Shown here: positions 8,301 to 16,554 of the stretch, one piece after another | Numbering within the stretch: position 1 is the stretch's first letter | How the letters are laid out: the number at the start of each line of letters is the position of its first letter | Virus record (IMG/VR): IMGVR_UViG_3300046758_000095 | Location: 1 to 21,226 of that record | Length of the DNA: 21,226 bases | DNA from: a virus | Strand: one strand, 5' to 3' | Position numbers and translations under genes: made by a program | The notes under the pieces: generated by a model | Told to the model about the DNA's origin: nothing | Databases searched by the model: none | Seen by the model: the letters and a program-made list of their open reading frames with translations, nothing else

Positions 8301-11300
8301 CCTGCACGTCTAGTTTGTTTATTACCGCCATACATCATATCGTATACTACTGCATCTACAATATATTTTGTATCTCTTTCGCATACTTCAGTTTTATATT
8401 CAAAGTCAACAATGTCAGTAAAGATAAAACTTGTTACTGATGATTGTATTACTGCTTTTTGTGCTAATAATTGAGCTGCTGCGTTTTGTTGAGTAACATT
8501 TAACCAACTAAAGTTAGGTTGAATTTCTCCAGGTGTTCCGCTTAATGTTTGCGCTGTTACAGCATCTTCTATAATTTGTAATAAGTTTGAAGATGTTGTT
8601 GCTTCAACTGTAGTACCGTAATTGCCATTTAAACTTTGTGATTCATTGTTACCTGTGCTTGGTGTAACTGCAACACCTTGAATAACATCTTCAATAACGT
8701 CTGCTAAGTGTGCCCATGCTGCGCCAGTAACTGCTGCCTGTTCATCAGGTAGATATTCAGTTGCTCCTAAGAAATAAGCTCTAGTTGCAATTAACATCGC
8801 AATATTACCAGTATATAATAAATCATGGCAAAGTGCATCAATTACATATGCAGTATCACGTTCACATTTTTCTATGTCATATGTAAATCCATTGTAGGTT
8901 GTATTGATATAGTTTATTGTTTCAACTTGTAACGATGATTTTAAATCTATAAAGTCTTGTCTTGCAGATAATACTGCTGAATCAACCCATGCTGTACTTG
9001 GAGATACTGTTGCTGGCAAAGTGTCAATTCCAAATTCTACAACATCTTCTACAATTTGTACCAATGCTTCTACATCAGTTACTTCTGTTGAACTAGCATT
9101 AGAACCACTTGTATCCTGAGATTCACTATTACCTGTCTGTGCAGTTATTGAAGTGCCTAATAAAATTTCTTCTATAAGTCCTTGTAAGTGATTAAACCCT
9201 GCGGCTGTTTCTAATTGCTCACCTGGAACTTGTGTAGTTGCATTTTCAAAATATGACGAAGCAGCCAATTTAGTTGCTGTATTGCCGCCATAAACAATAT
9301 CGTATGTTAATGCATCTACAATATAACCAACATCTCTTTCACATTTTGTTGTGTTAAATGTTAAACTAGGAAAATTGTTTTGAATATAAGCTCTAGTGTC
9401 ATTTGCTAAGAATGCTCTATTGGCTTGTAATCTATCTCTAGCTGCTGTGATTGTTGCTGCTGCACCTGTAGGTATCGGAAATGATAAAGTGTCTGCTGCT
9501 GTATCTGTACTTACAACACCATTGTTTATAATGTCTACTATTTCGTCAAATGCTGCATTACTTCTAAGAACTGCTGTTGCATCAGCAGTCATAATAGTCG
9601 AAGCTCTTCCTTTTAAGAAGTTTATTGCCCCTACTGTTTGTGCTTTTTGATCGCTTTGTACATACGCACTTCCGGCTCTTTGATAAGCAAGTCCGTTTGT
9701 TACTGCATTATAGTTTGTTCCAAATGCAACATCAGATTGTACTGCATCAATTATTAAGCCTGTATCACGTGAGCATTTTGCACTGTCGTATACAAATAAA
9801 GTACCGCTTCCATTGTCATATACATTATTAATATATGCTGTAGTTTCTTTTGTCAAAAATTCACGGTTGTTAATAATTTGTTCAACTGCGTCAATTAAGT
9901 CTTGTCCAGCTGGTCCTGGACTTTCAAATGTTCTACCTTCACTTGGAATAGTATTATATTCAATAACTTCTAGGACATCGTCCCAACGATCAGATACTTG
10001 TTGTTTGATAAAACTATCTAAATCAACTGCTGCAACACTAAGTTCTTTTGCTTTCCTTAGTGCCATTATAGTTGCAGGTTTTTGTTGCTCATCAAAATAA
10101 GCAACATTAGCTCTATAATATGCCTGACCAGCTGTTAAACTGTTGTGATTAGTTCCTAGTTGAGCATCTCTATATACTGCATCAATTATTAATCCAGTGT
10201 CTCTTTCACATTTTGTTCTATCAAATGTATCATTAGGATAAGTTGCCAACAAGTAAGCGTTTGTTGCACTTATCATTGAAGTTGTATTGTTTAATATATC
10301 ATTTGCAGCATTTTGTTTTACTAATGTTTCGCTATCATATGTTGGATATGTTATAAGAGGTAATCTACTAGTTGTATTTTCTGCAACTACATCTTCAATA
10401 TTAAATAGTAAACTATCTAATGCATCTGCTTCAATACTAGTTGCTGCCGCATTACTAAAATCTTGTGTTTCTGTAGTGCCAGGGCTTTGTACTACAACTT
10501 GTTCTCTTACTACAGATTTTATAACATTACGCATTCTCGCAAAACCATCTGCAATTCTAGTTCTGTTAATTGCTGTGTAACTTGCTATTTTACGTCTGCT
10601 ATAGTATCTAAAACCTTCTCTAACAACACCACTGTTACCTGTGTATAATATATCGTAAGTTAAAGCATCTACAATTTTCTTAAAATCTTCATAGAAGTCT
10701 GTTTCGTCTTGTGCTGTCCAAGTGTCAGTTAGTGTCGGATGTTCGCTTTTCATATAAGCAACAAATTCGTCTGCTAAAAAGTCTTTGTTTGCTTGTAATT
10801 GATTTTTAGAATCTCTTCTATTTGCTTCTACACCGGCAAAGTCTGGGAAGTCAATTGTTATTCCTGAACTATCGCCATCATCAAAAATATTCACATAACT
10901 GTTAAACGATTCGTTAACAAATGTAGTCATTGCTCCGTCTGCTAGAACTTCTGTCAACGCTAGTGACCTAGTCTGCAAATCTTTCCAAGCATTTAAGTAT
11001 AATTCTTTTTGTGTATCTCTTACTACATATTCTTGTGCATCTCTTACTACATGATAATTACTTCCTAATGCACATGTATAAGCAACTGCCTTTAAAAGAT
11101 TAGTTGCATCAGTTTCAAACTGTGGAACATTGTAACTTAATTCAGTAAACTGATTTCTTATATATTCTGTAATTTCTTCTACAATGAAATCTTTATTTGC
11201 AACAATATTGTCTTTTGCTCTACGAACTCCTAAGTCAACAGTTGACAAATCATTATAATTAATATCAGGAGCAGCACTACTATCTTCGTTTGCAAGGAAA

Positions 11301-12910: not shown

Positions 12911-13243
12911 TTATACTTCCAAATAACTTAATGTAACACTTAAATTAGTAGGCGGAGCGCCTACCATAATTATTCTATCACCTTCTTCTAATACCAGTCT
13001 TTCGACGTTAAATGTAAAGGTATCTGCAGACGGAACATCCAAATCATTTAACACTTGATTGTCGCTGCCCTTAGCATCTCCGTTAACAACAACATGCATA
13101 TCAAATGATGTATCGCCAATGCCGCTACCATCGTTTACCGCGGTGTTGCATACTAGAATAGTGGTAACAGCAAATTTTTTGCCAGCTGGAACAGTTAGTA
13201 TGGTAGTATCTGTTGCGCCTATGGTGTTGTTTACTATTGCCAT
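12911..13243 (-). CDS. 110-aa small virion protein, probable beta-sandwich
   Basis: ATG at 13243 with AAGGA about 8 nt upstream. It starts 9 bases after the stop of the 358-aa gene and ends 3 bases before the 2528-aa gene, so the three are surely co-transcribed. The sequence is almost all alternating beta strands: MAIVNNTIGATDTTI, AVTTILVCNT, DMHVVV, TFTFNVERLVLEEGDRI and LSVTLSYLEV. Small proteins of this pattern (strand-rich, with an ERLVLE.GD motif near the end) accompany fibre genes in marine T4-like phages, from memory and not checked. I infer a virion decoration or fibre-associated subunit. It has no signal peptide, membrane segment or catalytic motif. Confidence 0.75.
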   Translation of the reverse strand: MAIVNNTIGATDTTILTVPAGKKFAVTTILVCNTAVNDGSGIGDTSFDMHVVVNGDAKGSDNQVLNDLDVPSADTFTFNVERLVLEEGDRIIMVGAPPTNLSVTLSYLEV

Positions 13244-13252
13244 TTTCTTTCC

Positions 13253-14329
13253 TTAAAATATAATACTAAAAAGCAGAGCTTTGTTTCTGCTAATTAATTC
13301 GTCTTGTGTACCTATAGCGTTTCTAAAAAACACACCTGTGCCTCCATCTGCCTCTGGTTTACTGTATAAAAATACACCATCAGTAGGATCAGATGCAGGA
13401 TCAGTTTGTTCGGTTAGTTGTGCTACACTATCAATTTTTGCAACGCCGGTGCCTGAACCTTTTACAATAACATCACCAATCAAGTCTGGACTTGTAATAA
13501 TGTTGTCTGTTAAAAATACTTGCCCTATTGTTACACCGTCATCTTTGAAAACAGCAGCAGTTGAAGTATCAATTGTTATTTCTACTCTGCTATCTTCTGC
13601 AGGATCAATTTCAGTATCATAAACTCTAACTTCGGTTAAAGATGCTAAATCGTTAAATTTAATTCTATCTTGAAAGTTATATTTGTGATATTCTTTAACA
13701 TAATCCTTTAAAGTTTTTACAGTGATTAATGCGTCTATGTCACCAGGTGTAGCTAGTTTATCTGGATTAGAAGCGTTTGGTGTTATATCATCGCCGGTAT
13801 ATGGAAATACCTGTTTATGATAATCACTTGTGCCTCTAACACTTACAATGCCAGTGCCTTCTGCTAATAATATTAAATCATTATTTGCAAATGTTTTTAA
13901 ACCACTAGTGTAAAGTGTTTTTAATTTGTTTTGAGTATCACTCATAACAAATGCACCAGCATCTACATCTGGAAATGTTGCTAATGTTAAGCCGCCGTTA
14001 CCGGGTACAATGTTCTTCTGTGTTTCGTCAAAAAGTATACTTGCATTGAATCCTCCGGCACCTTCGCCGCGGTCAATAATAATACCGGCTTTTCTTTCGC
14101 CGTCTGCTTCACTAATACCTGGTCCTTGTTCGCCGTCGTTTACTGTAATTGTTCTGTCACGAACAACAACTTCGTTTACTTCGGTTTGTGTAATATTACC
14201 AGTAACACTCAAGCTACCAGTGATATTAACCTGACCTAAGTCGGTACCAGTATCAATAGTAAAAATTGCACTATCATTTAACTTAATCTTATAGGAATCG
14301 AGATCAAGTATTTCAACTCTTTGAGCCAT
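13253..14329 (-). CDS. 358-aa fibre-like structural protein
   Basis: ATG at 14329 with GGAG 7 nt upstream; starts 11 bases after the 121-aa gene. The N-terminus is beta-rich with ITGSLSVTGNIT, the repeat type used to build triple-stranded fibre shafts. It is followed by VVVRDRTITVNDGE and GIIIDRG. The middle is acidic and mixed. The C-terminus has DGVFLYSKPEADGGTGVFF, then DELISRNKALLFSIIF. That ending (a Gly-Gly-Thr-Gly segment, then ELIS.+KAL and a hydrophobic IIF end) is one I associate with virion proteins of marine T4-like phages, without having checked a database. Its place between a small virion protein and the giant adhesin supports a tail or fibre role. The exact position in the particle is unknown. 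Confidence 0.75.
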   Translation of the reverse strand: MAQRVEILDLDSYKIKLNDSAIFTIDTGTDLGQVNITGSLSVTGNITQTEVNEVVVRDRTITVNDGEQGPGISEADGERKAGIIIDRGEGAGGFNASILFDETQKNIVPGNGGLTLATFPDVDAGAFVMSDTQNKLKTLYTSGLKTFANNDLILLAEGTGIVSVRGTSDYHKQVFPYTGDDITPNASNPDKLATPGDIDALITVKTLKDYVKEYHKYNFQDRIKFNDLASLTEVRVYDTEIDPAEDSRVEITIDTSTAAVFKDDGVTIGQVFLTDNIITSPDLIGDVIVKGSGTGVAKIDSVAQLTEQTDPASDPTDGVFLYSKPEADGGTGVFFRNAIGTQDELISRNKALLFSIIF

Positions 14330-14340
14330 TACTTAACTCC

Positions 14341-14706
14341 TTAAACAGCAGTTAAACGTAGTAATGATTCTGTTGAGTCGTCTTCAACTGTCCACGAATA
14401 ACGATTTCCATTATAATCAACTGCGACTCTGTTGAAAATCTTTTTAATAGCAATTGCGCCGCCGCCTGCTCCAATACCTATGATTTGGCATTCTAAATCT
14501 GCGTTTGGTGCTGAACCATCTATTGTTAATCTGCAAATTCTTGTGATTGTATCGCCATCGTTTGAGCAATTAAATTTGTTTGTACCACGTTGTGTAAGAA
14601 TCTTACCTTCAATTAAATTTGATCCATCGTGGAATCTGACTGGAATCTTTGGTGTTGCATCAACACCCGTGGCTCCAAAGTTTCTGTTGTTTACTGGACG
14701 TCCCAT
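14341..14706 (-). CDS. 121-aa virion-associated protein (start corrected to 14706)
   Basis: The frame is open from 14766, but the start with a real ribosome site is ATG at 14706: AAGGAG lies 7 nt before it, and the protein then begins MGRPVNNRNFG. The 20 residues added by the longer start are highly charged, lie in the leader, and have no ribosome site. The N-terminus is basic with Asn and Gly. The rest is strand-rich: IPVRFHDGSNLIEGKIL, ITRICRLTI, ECQIIGIGAGGG, IKKIFNRVAVDYNGNRYSW. It is first in the operon after late-type promoter GATAAATA. I infer a small structural or head-tail protein from its neighbours; the family function is not known to me. Confidence 0.75.
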   Translation of the reverse strand: MGRPVNNRNFGATGVDATPKIPVRFHDGSNLIEGKILTQRGTNKFNCSNDGDTITRICRLTIDGSAPNADLECQIIGIGAGGGAIAIKKIFNRVAVDYNGNRYSWTVEDDSTESLLRLTAV

Positions 14707-14791
14707 TGTTTTCTCCTTATGTTGACGTTCTAGGTCTACGCGGTGGGTTTCCGCATAAGTCCTCATCTAGAGGTACTCTCTATGACATAAG

Positions 14792-14799
14792 TATTTATC
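14792..14799 (-). promoter_or_regulatory. Late-promoter-like GATAAATA before the 121-358-110-2528 aa operon
   Basis: GATAAATA on the minus strand, 86 bases upstream of the ATG at 14706 and about 33 bases past the terminator hairpin. It matches the T4 late core TATAAATA in seven of eight bases and is identical to the octamer at 5297-5290. As expected for T4-type late promoters, no -35 box is seen. Confidence 0.6.
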
Positions 14800-14830: not shown

Positions 14831-15076
14831 AAAAAGGCCTACCGCATCAGTGGGTAGACCTTTTAATAATAAAGTGATAGGTTGGACTTAATGATTACCA
14901 ACAACCTCCTAGTAGCTCATGCCAATTTCGGAGGAGCCTAGTATCGGATAGTTACTTCCAAAAACATATCTTTGTATCTCTACACTCATATGTTGCCACT
15001 ACAGCTACTAGCCAAGTTGTGTCACTACGCAACACCGTTCCTTGCACTATCTAATCTAAACCGTCGTCTAGCTTAT
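14831..15076 (-). ncRNA. Candidate phage small RNA, about 245 nt, structured
   Basis: The 400 bases between the 121-aa and cold-shock-like genes hold no frame longer than about 31 codons and none with a good ribosome site. A sigma70-like promoter (15110-15083) predicts a start near 15076 and the terminator above ends it. Inside are: a hairpin AACAUAU/AUAUGUU (14994-14988 with 14969-14963), a symmetrical 3x3 purine internal loop, a UGUA/UACA stem and a GAGA tetraloop of GNRA type; a 9-bp helix 15011-15003 with 14917-14909; and GAUAGU/ACUAUC (15051-15046 with 14952-14947). The last two would interleave, as in a pseudoknot, or be alternatives. There is also a CUCCUCC tract (14936-14930) and an AGGAGG (14910-14905). 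I recognise no known RNA family. The alternative is an ordinary leader or spacer. Confidence 0.55.
14832..14864 (-). terminator. Intrinsic terminator of the candidate small RNA
   Basis: A 12-bp stem joins 14832-14843 to 14853-14864 with a 9-base loop. In minus-strand RNA the one non-Watson-Crick position is a U-G wobble. In plus-strand RNA the same position would be a C-A mismatch, so the fold favours minus-strand transcription. The stem ends in a run of five U followed by CUG. Confidence 0.8.
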
Positions 15077-15082
15077 GTACTT

Positions 15083-15110
15083 AATATAACATATCTGTAA
15101 GAGAAGTCAA
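15083..15110 (-). promoter_or_regulatory. Sigma70-like promoter with extended -10
   Basis: Minus strand: TTGACT at 15110-15105, a 16-base spacer, and TATATT at 15088-15083 preceded by TGT, an extended -10. Five of six bases match consensus at each hexamer. The -35 box overlaps the stop codon of the cold-shock-like gene. This is a host-polymerase or early type of promoter inside a late gene block and is unlike the GATAAATA sites nearby. Confidence 0.65.
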
Positions 15111-15307
15111 CCTATTTTTTCAACATTTTCGGCATATCTTCTACCTTTTTTTTCTAGGTACGTATATACAACTTTGTCTCCATCTGAAAATTCATAATTC
15201 ACAGTTTCGTAGTAAACATCTTGTCTTAATGATTTCCATCGATCAGGCAGAATAGTGCCGTATTTTTTTCTTTTGCTGCTTTTTATAACTGTTCCTGTGT
15301 GTTCCAT
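15107..15307 (-). CDS. 66-aa diverged cold-shock-domain protein
   Basis: ATG at 15307 with GGAG 5 nt upstream. The length equals a single cold-shock domain (about 65-70 aa) and the motifs fall in order. GTVIKSSKRKKYGTILPD matches the GTVKWFN...KGFGFI.P region, with KYGTI as RNP1. DVYYET (residues 30-35) stands where CspA proteins have DVFVH, as RNP2. DGDKVVYTY matches EGQ.V.F, and RRYAENV matches the GP.A.NV ending. Aromatics Y16, Y32 and Y33 could stack on bases, but the usual KWFN aromatic is lost. Family members bind single-stranded RNA or DNA and act as RNA chaperones. It lies right after gp23 and its terminator and before the candidate small RNA. The assignment is by motif order, not a database hit. 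Confidence 0.65.
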   Translation of the reverse strand: MEHTGTVIKSSKRKKYGTILPDRWKSLRQDVYYETVNYEFSDGDKVVYTYLEKKGRRYAENVEKIG

Positions 15308-15336: not shown

Positions 15337-15362
15337 AAAATAGGCCCCGTAGGGCCTATTTT
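15337..15362 (-). terminator. Terminator after gp23
   Basis: An 11-bp perfect stem, 15337-15347 with 15352-15362, around a 4-base loop; the core is AATAGGCCC/GGGCCTATT. On the minus strand it ends in a run of U (UAUUUUUAUG). It lies about 20 bases after the gp23 stop, closing the core-protease-scaffold-capsid operon. Confidence 0.85.
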
Positions 15363-15381: not shown

Positions 15382-16554
15382 TTAGCTGAATGATACGTTT
15401 GCAACGCTTACACGAGCTAGGTAATCAGCAGCATTGCCTAAAGACGATGCTGTGTTGTTTAGCTCAACATAACCGTAACGTGTCATGAAGCTCACTACTG
15501 GCTCAAATGATGTTGGATCTAGTACAACACCACTTGACATTAGTGGGATATATGGGCAATAGAACGCTGCTGCGTCTGATTCAGAAGAACCTTTATAACC
15601 AATTAGTACATCTTGAGCGTCTGATGCATATGTGTTTACATATACTTTCATTGCGTTGTTTAATGTACCAACCATTTTAGTGTTAGTTGGTGCTTCGAAT
15701 GTGCCTTCTGTAGTACGTGCAAACGCTGAAGTTGTTGCAGACTGTAGGACTGTTAGTGTGTGTGGTGACACAACTGCCCAGTTACCTGCACCACGGCGTG
15801 TGCGCTGTGCAATTTTGTTAGATGCACGGTTAATCATAACTGCTAGAGCAGCATGTTCGTCACCAACAAATGTAGCTGTACCAGATACGCTGTTTTGATC
15901 AAACTGTACGTCTGATTCAGCTGAACCTGCTAGGCTGTATAGAGATGCAATGATCTCTTGGTCAATTTCAGCAGTAATTTCTTGTGCTAGAGCAGCCATA
16001 ATTTCTGCTTCAACATCGATACCGTGCTGTGATTGTGCATCCTGAGCTGCCTCAAAAGTCCAACGTGCTGATAGCTTACGTGTTTTAGCTTCAACAGTCT
16101 GTTTCAAGATCTGAATGCTTAGTTTGTTACCAGCTGTACCTTCCATTGCTGCTGTAGCGTTAGCTTTACCAGCATCGGAACCAGCTTCATCACCTGAATA
16201 ACCAATAGCTAGTTTGAATGGGCTTAATGCTTCTTCACCTGCTGTTGCGTCATCAGCTGTGTCTGAGTAACGTACTCTTAATGTGTGGATTTGACCCACT
16301 GGACCAGTCATTGGTTGTACACCCACAATCTCGTTAGCGATGACTGTTGGCATAACACGTCTGATTACTGGAAGAATCACACGATTTAGTGTTGCGATGT
16401 TACCGGCAGATGTAGCACCAGCAGTTGCAGTCTCCATTAAATACTTGCGAGTATTTTCTAGTGTGGAAGCCATTACTGCTTTCTTTGTGCCTGCTAGGCC
16501 TTCAAGAAGTGCGCTTTTTGTATCGTGCCAGCGACTTTCTAATAGTTCTGACAT
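15382..16554 (-). CDS. gp23: Major capsid protein gp23
   Basis: 390 aa from ATG at 16554, with AAGGAG 7 nt upstream and 13 bases after the gp22 stop. It belongs to the T4 gp23 family (HK97-type fold): VIRRVMPTVIANEIVGVQPMTGPVGQIHTLRVRY is the conserved block (T4 has RRAIP...FDICGVQPMNSPTGQ). NWAVVSPHTLTVLQS and FYCPYIPL, SFEPVVSFMTRYGY follow in the usual order. It is shorter than T4 gp23 (521 aa). The N-terminal 41 residues are the likely propeptide: KYLME|TA (after Glu41) fits the LxE cleavage rule of gp21, and LLE|G (after Glu18) is a second possible site. It forms the capsid hexamers. No gp24-like vertex protein follows it here. Confidence 0.95.
   Translation of the reverse strand: MSELLESRWHDTKSALLEGLAGTKKAVMASTLENTRKYLMETATAGATSAGNIATLNRVILPVIRRVMPTVIANEIVGVQPMTGPVGQIHTLRVRYSDTADDATAGEEALSPFKLAIGYSGDEAGSDAGKANATAAMEGTAGNKLSIQILKQTVEAKTRKLSARWTFEAAQDAQSQHGIDVEAEIMAALAQEITAEIDQEIIASLYSLAGSAESDVQFDQNSVSGTATFVGDEHAALAVMINRASNKIAQRTRRGAGNWAVVSPHTLTVLQSATTSAFARTTEGTFEAPTNTKMVGTLNNAMKVYVNTYASDAQDVLIGYKGSSESDAAAFYCPYIPLMSSGVVLDPTSFEPVVSFMTRYGYVELNNTASSLGNAADYLARVSVANVSFS

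Follow-up and report, generated by a model that had tools for sequence, protein, structure and literature searches.

The stretch from about 15076 to 14831 on the minus strand of the window (the whole 21,226-nt DNA analyzed here, IMG/VR record IMGVR_UViG_3300046758_000095) is likely a discrete phage RNA gene, whose product would be an early, terminated, and free manA-type RNA acting in trans. Taken part by part, we hold an autonomous manA-type RNA gene to be very probable, and we favor action of the RNA in trans with more modest confidence. Comparison with related viral copies reveals a conserved promoter, fold, and terminator, homology to manA, varied neighbors, and no matched pairing between terminator and RNA. 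The occurrence of the RNA with its own promoter and terminator in many aquatic T4-like viruses suggests a free RNA and not only a switch acting on a neighboring gene. The initial annotation of this DNA had proposed a stand-alone RNA equipped with a promoter and a terminator, and the relatives bear that proposal out, as every part is conserved in about 100 viral copies, compensatory changes are present, and the neighbors vary.

Organization of the RNA gene and its neighbors

The features of the region are collected in Table 1.

Table 1. Coordinates of the RNA gene and of neighboring features in the window
Feature	Position	Strand	Basis or remark
Major capsid protein gp23	15382..16554	-	PF07068, E 8e-100; two genes upstream of the RNA
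66-aa cold-shock-domain-like gene	15107..15307	-	PF00313, E 0.0078, below cut-off
sigma70-type promoter of the RNA (predicted)	15083..15110	-	Sequence and conservation in relatives
manA-type structured RNA (RF01745)	14871..15071	-	Covariance-model match, covariation
Intrinsic terminator (predicted)	14831..14864	-	12-bp stem with one U-G wobble, 9-nt loop, U5
T4-late-type promoter box GATAAATAC	14791..14799	-	Downstream of the terminator, serves the next gene
Freshwater-2 RNA (RF02980)	14704..14775	-	53.1 bits, above gathering score; leader of the 121-aa gene
121-aa gene, function unassigned	14341..14706	-	Downstream of the RNA; own late-type box and leader

The minus-strand promoter described in the initial annotation was confirmed in letters and spacing and is kept in relatives, with the -35 box TTGACT at 15110-15105, a spacer of 16 nt, and an extended -10 element TGtTATATT at 15091-15083 (hexamer TATATT at 15088-15083). 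Its TTGAC box overlaps the TGA stop codon of the preceding 66-aa gene. Transcription is predicted to start at about 15076, a few bases ahead of the first hairpin of the RNA, and with an end at 14831 the predicted transcript measures about 245 nt. The same annotation had placed a 12-bp stem and U5 some 220 bases past the promoter and had described the stem as complete in the minus-strand RNA through a U-G wobble; the distances agree, and the stem AAAAGGUCUACC/GGUAGGCCUUUU joins 14864-14853 to 14843-14832 in 12 pairs, one of them the U-G wobble. The U5 is partly counted within this stem and is followed by CUG, and the U run is short. Between promoter and terminator, where no convincing frame had been seen, the only ORFs encode 26, 31, and 42 aa, and none is conserved among the relatives, in which the longest open stretches across the RNA vary in frame and length. 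A small protein was thus rejected because its frame is not conserved, and a tRNA or tmRNA was rejected because none was found in the window.

The RNA does not occupy a 5' UTR position in the window, since between it and the next gene lie its own terminator, a late-type box, and a further leader. This leader, the freshwater-2 RNA, adjoins on the same strand as a further structured element and differs in being the leader of the 121-aa gene behind the late-type box, past the terminator; it is a separate element and not part of the small RNA. The motif ATAAATA, which we take to be the T4-late-type promoter box, was found no more than 90 nt past the terminator in 63 of 68 copies (among the matches listed) versus 31 of 1360 random positions (2.3%), and it never occurred in the RNA's own promoter region among the window-type copies scanned. 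The sigma70-type promoter without a late box, together with the ATAAATA motif past the terminator in 63/68 copies, lends indirect support to the earlier proposal that the RNA may be made at a different time than the flanking genes.

Several further observations concern the neighborhood. Homologues of the 66-aa cold-shock-domain-like protein directly precede the RNA in many loci, the freshwater-2 core GACTTATG lies behind many related capsid genes, and a strong two-way terminator-like hairpin AAAATAGGCCCCGTAGGGCCTATTTT is located at 15337-15362, after gp23. The capsid protein of the carrier is nearest to those of jumbo T4-like phages, not cyanophages.

Assignment to the manA family

The initial annotation recognized no known RNA family, a statement that did not survive the Rfam search, which instead returned RF01745 (manA) over the whole model. 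The match runs end to end (positions 1-192 of 192) with 46.6 bits and an E-value of 9.4e-11 in 711 bases, and this score lies under the curated Rfam gathering score of 55.2 bits for RF01745. At gathering thresholds only freshwater-2 is reported in this region, and manA emerges with E-values. Six related copies exceed 55.2 bits, namely L112 (79.9), L023 (62.5), L015 (59.0), L084 (56.4), L040 (56.3), and L017 (55.4). Of these, blastn aligned both L015 (72% identity across about 480 bases) and L017 with the window. Moreover, RF01745 matches were obtained in 36 of the 48 source records of related loci versus 0 of 14 control genomes. Because the relatives above the cut-off include two that are alignable with the window, we assign the window copy by way of its orthologues and class it as a divergent manA-type RNA.

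Among phage isolates, no close sequence match to the RNA was found, and a search with strict filters found no manA in the isolated jumbo relatives Vibrio 2.275.O, Phosso, PA5oct, GAP32, PBECO4, and CBB. A weak manA match (25.9 bits) was seen in the Pelagibacter phage HTVC008M (NC_020484, 5037-5223), just upstream of a single-stranded DNA-binding protein gene. The family was described as cis-regulatory, a probable riboswitch, from marine sequences, cyanophages, and two gamma-proteobacteria (Weinberg et al. 2010, PMC2864571), its structure was corrected in Rfam 14 (PMC7779021), and the S-CREM1 paper lists manA as cis-regulatory with a role that needs verification (PMC9964418). In the open-licence literature, we found no report of a stand-alone form of manA and, since the 2010 description, no paper testing its function.

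Fold and compensatory changes

The window RNA shares with manA the overall fold, consisting of a 5' hairpin (15071-15056), a closing helix in which GAUAG at 15051-15047 pairs with CUAUC at 14880-14876, internal helices, and a 3' hairpin of the form GGUAnn...UCC, present here as UUGUUGGUAAUC...GUCCAAC. Folding of the RNA region was moderately better than in shuffles (z -3.0). The compensatory changes in relatives, which the initial annotation had named as a check, are present: using the Rfam structure on a 23-sequence alignment, both partners vary in 30 of the 54 pairs, paired cells make up 84.5%, and the covariation score is 0.297 versus 0.172 in shuffles. When the partners were slid by 1-3 columns, paired cells dropped to 31-44%, and the main helices were recovered independently by RNAalifold.

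The closing helix GAUAG/CUAUC is invariant in the window group (23/23), unlike the GGGAG/CUCCC of classical manA, which appears as GGGAG/CTCCC in 106 classical copies, so that the helix has switched as a whole; L069 carries CTTAG/CTAAG. Since a MAFFT alignment of window-type and classical manA was wrong in the middle and in the 5' closing strand, the closing helix of the classical copies was taken directly from sequence.

Conservation of the unit among viral contigs

A pattern scan of viral contigs yielded at least 109 distinct window-type copies, which are related by descent, so that the counts that follow are not independent. Among the matches listed, the promoter was present in all 108 copies with enough upstream sequence, in the form TTGA(C/T), a spacer of 15-19, and a TATATT- or TATTAT-like box, and it began 56-59 bases before the anchor in 104 of these 108; the same pattern was met at 182 of 4870 random positions of the same contigs (~4%). 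In the same scan, 85 of 99 classical manA copies also carried a promoter at the 5' end of the RNA.

Among the matches listed, a hairpin with a U run lay within 165-330 nt in 76 of 90 window-type copies, with the terminator close behind the RNA in 68 of these, and 14 of the 90 had no terminator within 330 nt. The terminator stems drift in sequence and stay paired. In 62 distinct copies, 42 different stems occur (again among the matches listed), examples being AAAGGTCTGC..GCAGGCCTTTTTTT, AAAGCTCTAGC..GTTAGAGCTTTTTT, and AGAGCCCGCC..GCGGGCTTTTTT. Own promoter and own terminator, the pair of features that marks a stand-alone phage sRNA, are thus both conserved.

Genomic settings of manA

The copies are found beside capsid genes, in tRNA arrays, and next to phage bS21-like genes. 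Among the matches listed, gp23 precedes 93 of the 109 window-type copies and the others sit elsewhere, and the gene just upstream may be cold-shock-like, bS21-like, a membrane protein, or another (assigned by eye except for the cold-shock-like genes). Immediately behind the RNA, L053 and L123 carry a tRNA-Gly, and tRNA genes are near it in L351, L363, L376, and L401. Among isolated cyanophages, manA is located directly between tRNA-Leu and tRNA-Asn in S-CREM1 (10215-10429) and directly between tRNA-Arg and tRNA-Asn in ACG-2014f, the tRNA-Gly of S-SSM7 begins at the base next to manA, and in P-SSM2 and P-SSM7 manA lies between protein genes. For the roughly 100 copies of classical cyanophage manA, the distance to the next gene is often just 10-60 nt (by eye, some of these genes begin like gp32 or transaldolase), and for this reason classical manA may still serve in a 5' UTR.

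Other elements were noted in these loci. The four loci L351, L363, L376, and L401 contain, after manA, a conserved micro-ORF (about 20-25 codons, with an end resembling WPP..WGMF), possibly a leader peptide, then a terminator and a tRNA-Trp. In nine others (L299, L325, L343, L348, L354, L386, L389, L400, and L412), manA is directly followed by a conserved element, about 110 nt in length and bearing a long terminal stem AGTGTTTTGAAATACACACCAGAGTAGATGCACC...GTGTGTATTTCAAA, for which no Rfam match was found in the three loci scanned (L299, L325, and L354). The ORF before manA resembles, by eye, the phage-encoded ribosomal protein bS21 in L299, L313, L343, L354, L378, and L386, and the viral contig L299 also carries a permuted tmRNA (RF04321, 118 bits) at 12927-13260 (+).

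Competing explanations and proposed mechanism

The window by itself would not exclude that promoter-like and terminator-like strings arose by chance in an intergenic stretch: it holds 51 promoter-like sites versus 53.5 expected from shuffles, so that the promoter alone does not rise above the shuffled expectation. Covariation and the retention of every part across more than 100 viral copies nevertheless leave this explanation with next to no probability, and it was rejected by way of these relatives. A more substantial rival is a riboswitch or attenuator in which ligand sensing by the manA fold would determine whether the terminator hairpin stops transcription before the 121-aa late gene. Such a role agrees with the filing of manA as cis-regulatory and a probable riboswitch by Rfam and Weinberg et al. 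2010 (PMC2864571), with a terminator right behind an aptamer-like fold, and with the many classical copies that closely precede genes. Yet the terminator arms pair no better with their own RNA than with RNAs swapped in from other viruses (mean z 0.04 and -0.05), and one conserved fold is followed by the 42 different terminator stems counted among the matches listed. Moreover, a separate late-type box and the freshwater-2 leader serve the 121-aa gene, and across the copies the downstream neighbors include tRNA genes and other RNAs and the upstream genes vary. We consider a riboswitch here quite unlikely.

It is also rather unlikely that promoter and fold form a cassette with a stable leader, in which a structured 5' end protects or processes the RNA that follows (an mRNA in cyanophages, a tRNA in some cases) and in this virus group merely precedes a terminator. 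Promoter and manA do occur jointly in both groups, the start lying near the first hairpin, and what lies behind manA varies among protein genes, tRNAs, and terminators, as such a cassette would have it. Most window-type copies, however, have only a terminator behind the RNA and hence no cargo to protect, and compensatory changes nonetheless preserve the fold.

For the free manA-type RNA that we prefer, host-type (sigma70) RNA polymerase would start at the conserved TTGAC/TATATT promoter, copy the manA-type fold of about 200 nt, and stop at the intrinsic terminator. The resulting free RNA, about 245 nt long, would probably be made early in infection, and the flanking head genes would be served by T4-late-type promoters. 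This RNA may then act in trans, its conserved folded core being presented to a protein, a ribosome component, or a small ligand.

Relation to known RNAs and significance

A strong promoter at the 5' end of the RNA is common to the window RNA and classical manA. The window copy differs from the classical form in scoring below the family cut-off, in being closed by its own terminator where the classical RNA runs into a gene, and in a carrier whose capsid points away from cyanophages. Phage T4 encodes in its tRNA cluster the stable RNAs C and D, which are structured, located with tRNAs, and of unknown function. Compared by description, manA resembles them in sitting with tRNAs in S-CREM1 and ACG-2014f, and the window copy differs from them in lying outside a tRNA cluster with its own promoter and terminator.

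More tentatively, manA RNAs as a whole may not be riboswitches but autonomous phage RNAs, made early from the promoter at their 5' end, freed by terminators or tRNA processing, and acting in trans, in which case the 5'-UTR placement in cyanophages would simply follow from genome compactness. Since 2010, manA has stood as an orphan "riboswitch candidate". In a large group of aquatic viruses it forms a complete unit of promoter, RNA, and terminator; it can consequently be studied as a free molecule, and its cis-regulatory label in Rfam needs review. Window-type manA would enlarge the small set of structured RNAs other than tRNAs known from T4-like phages.
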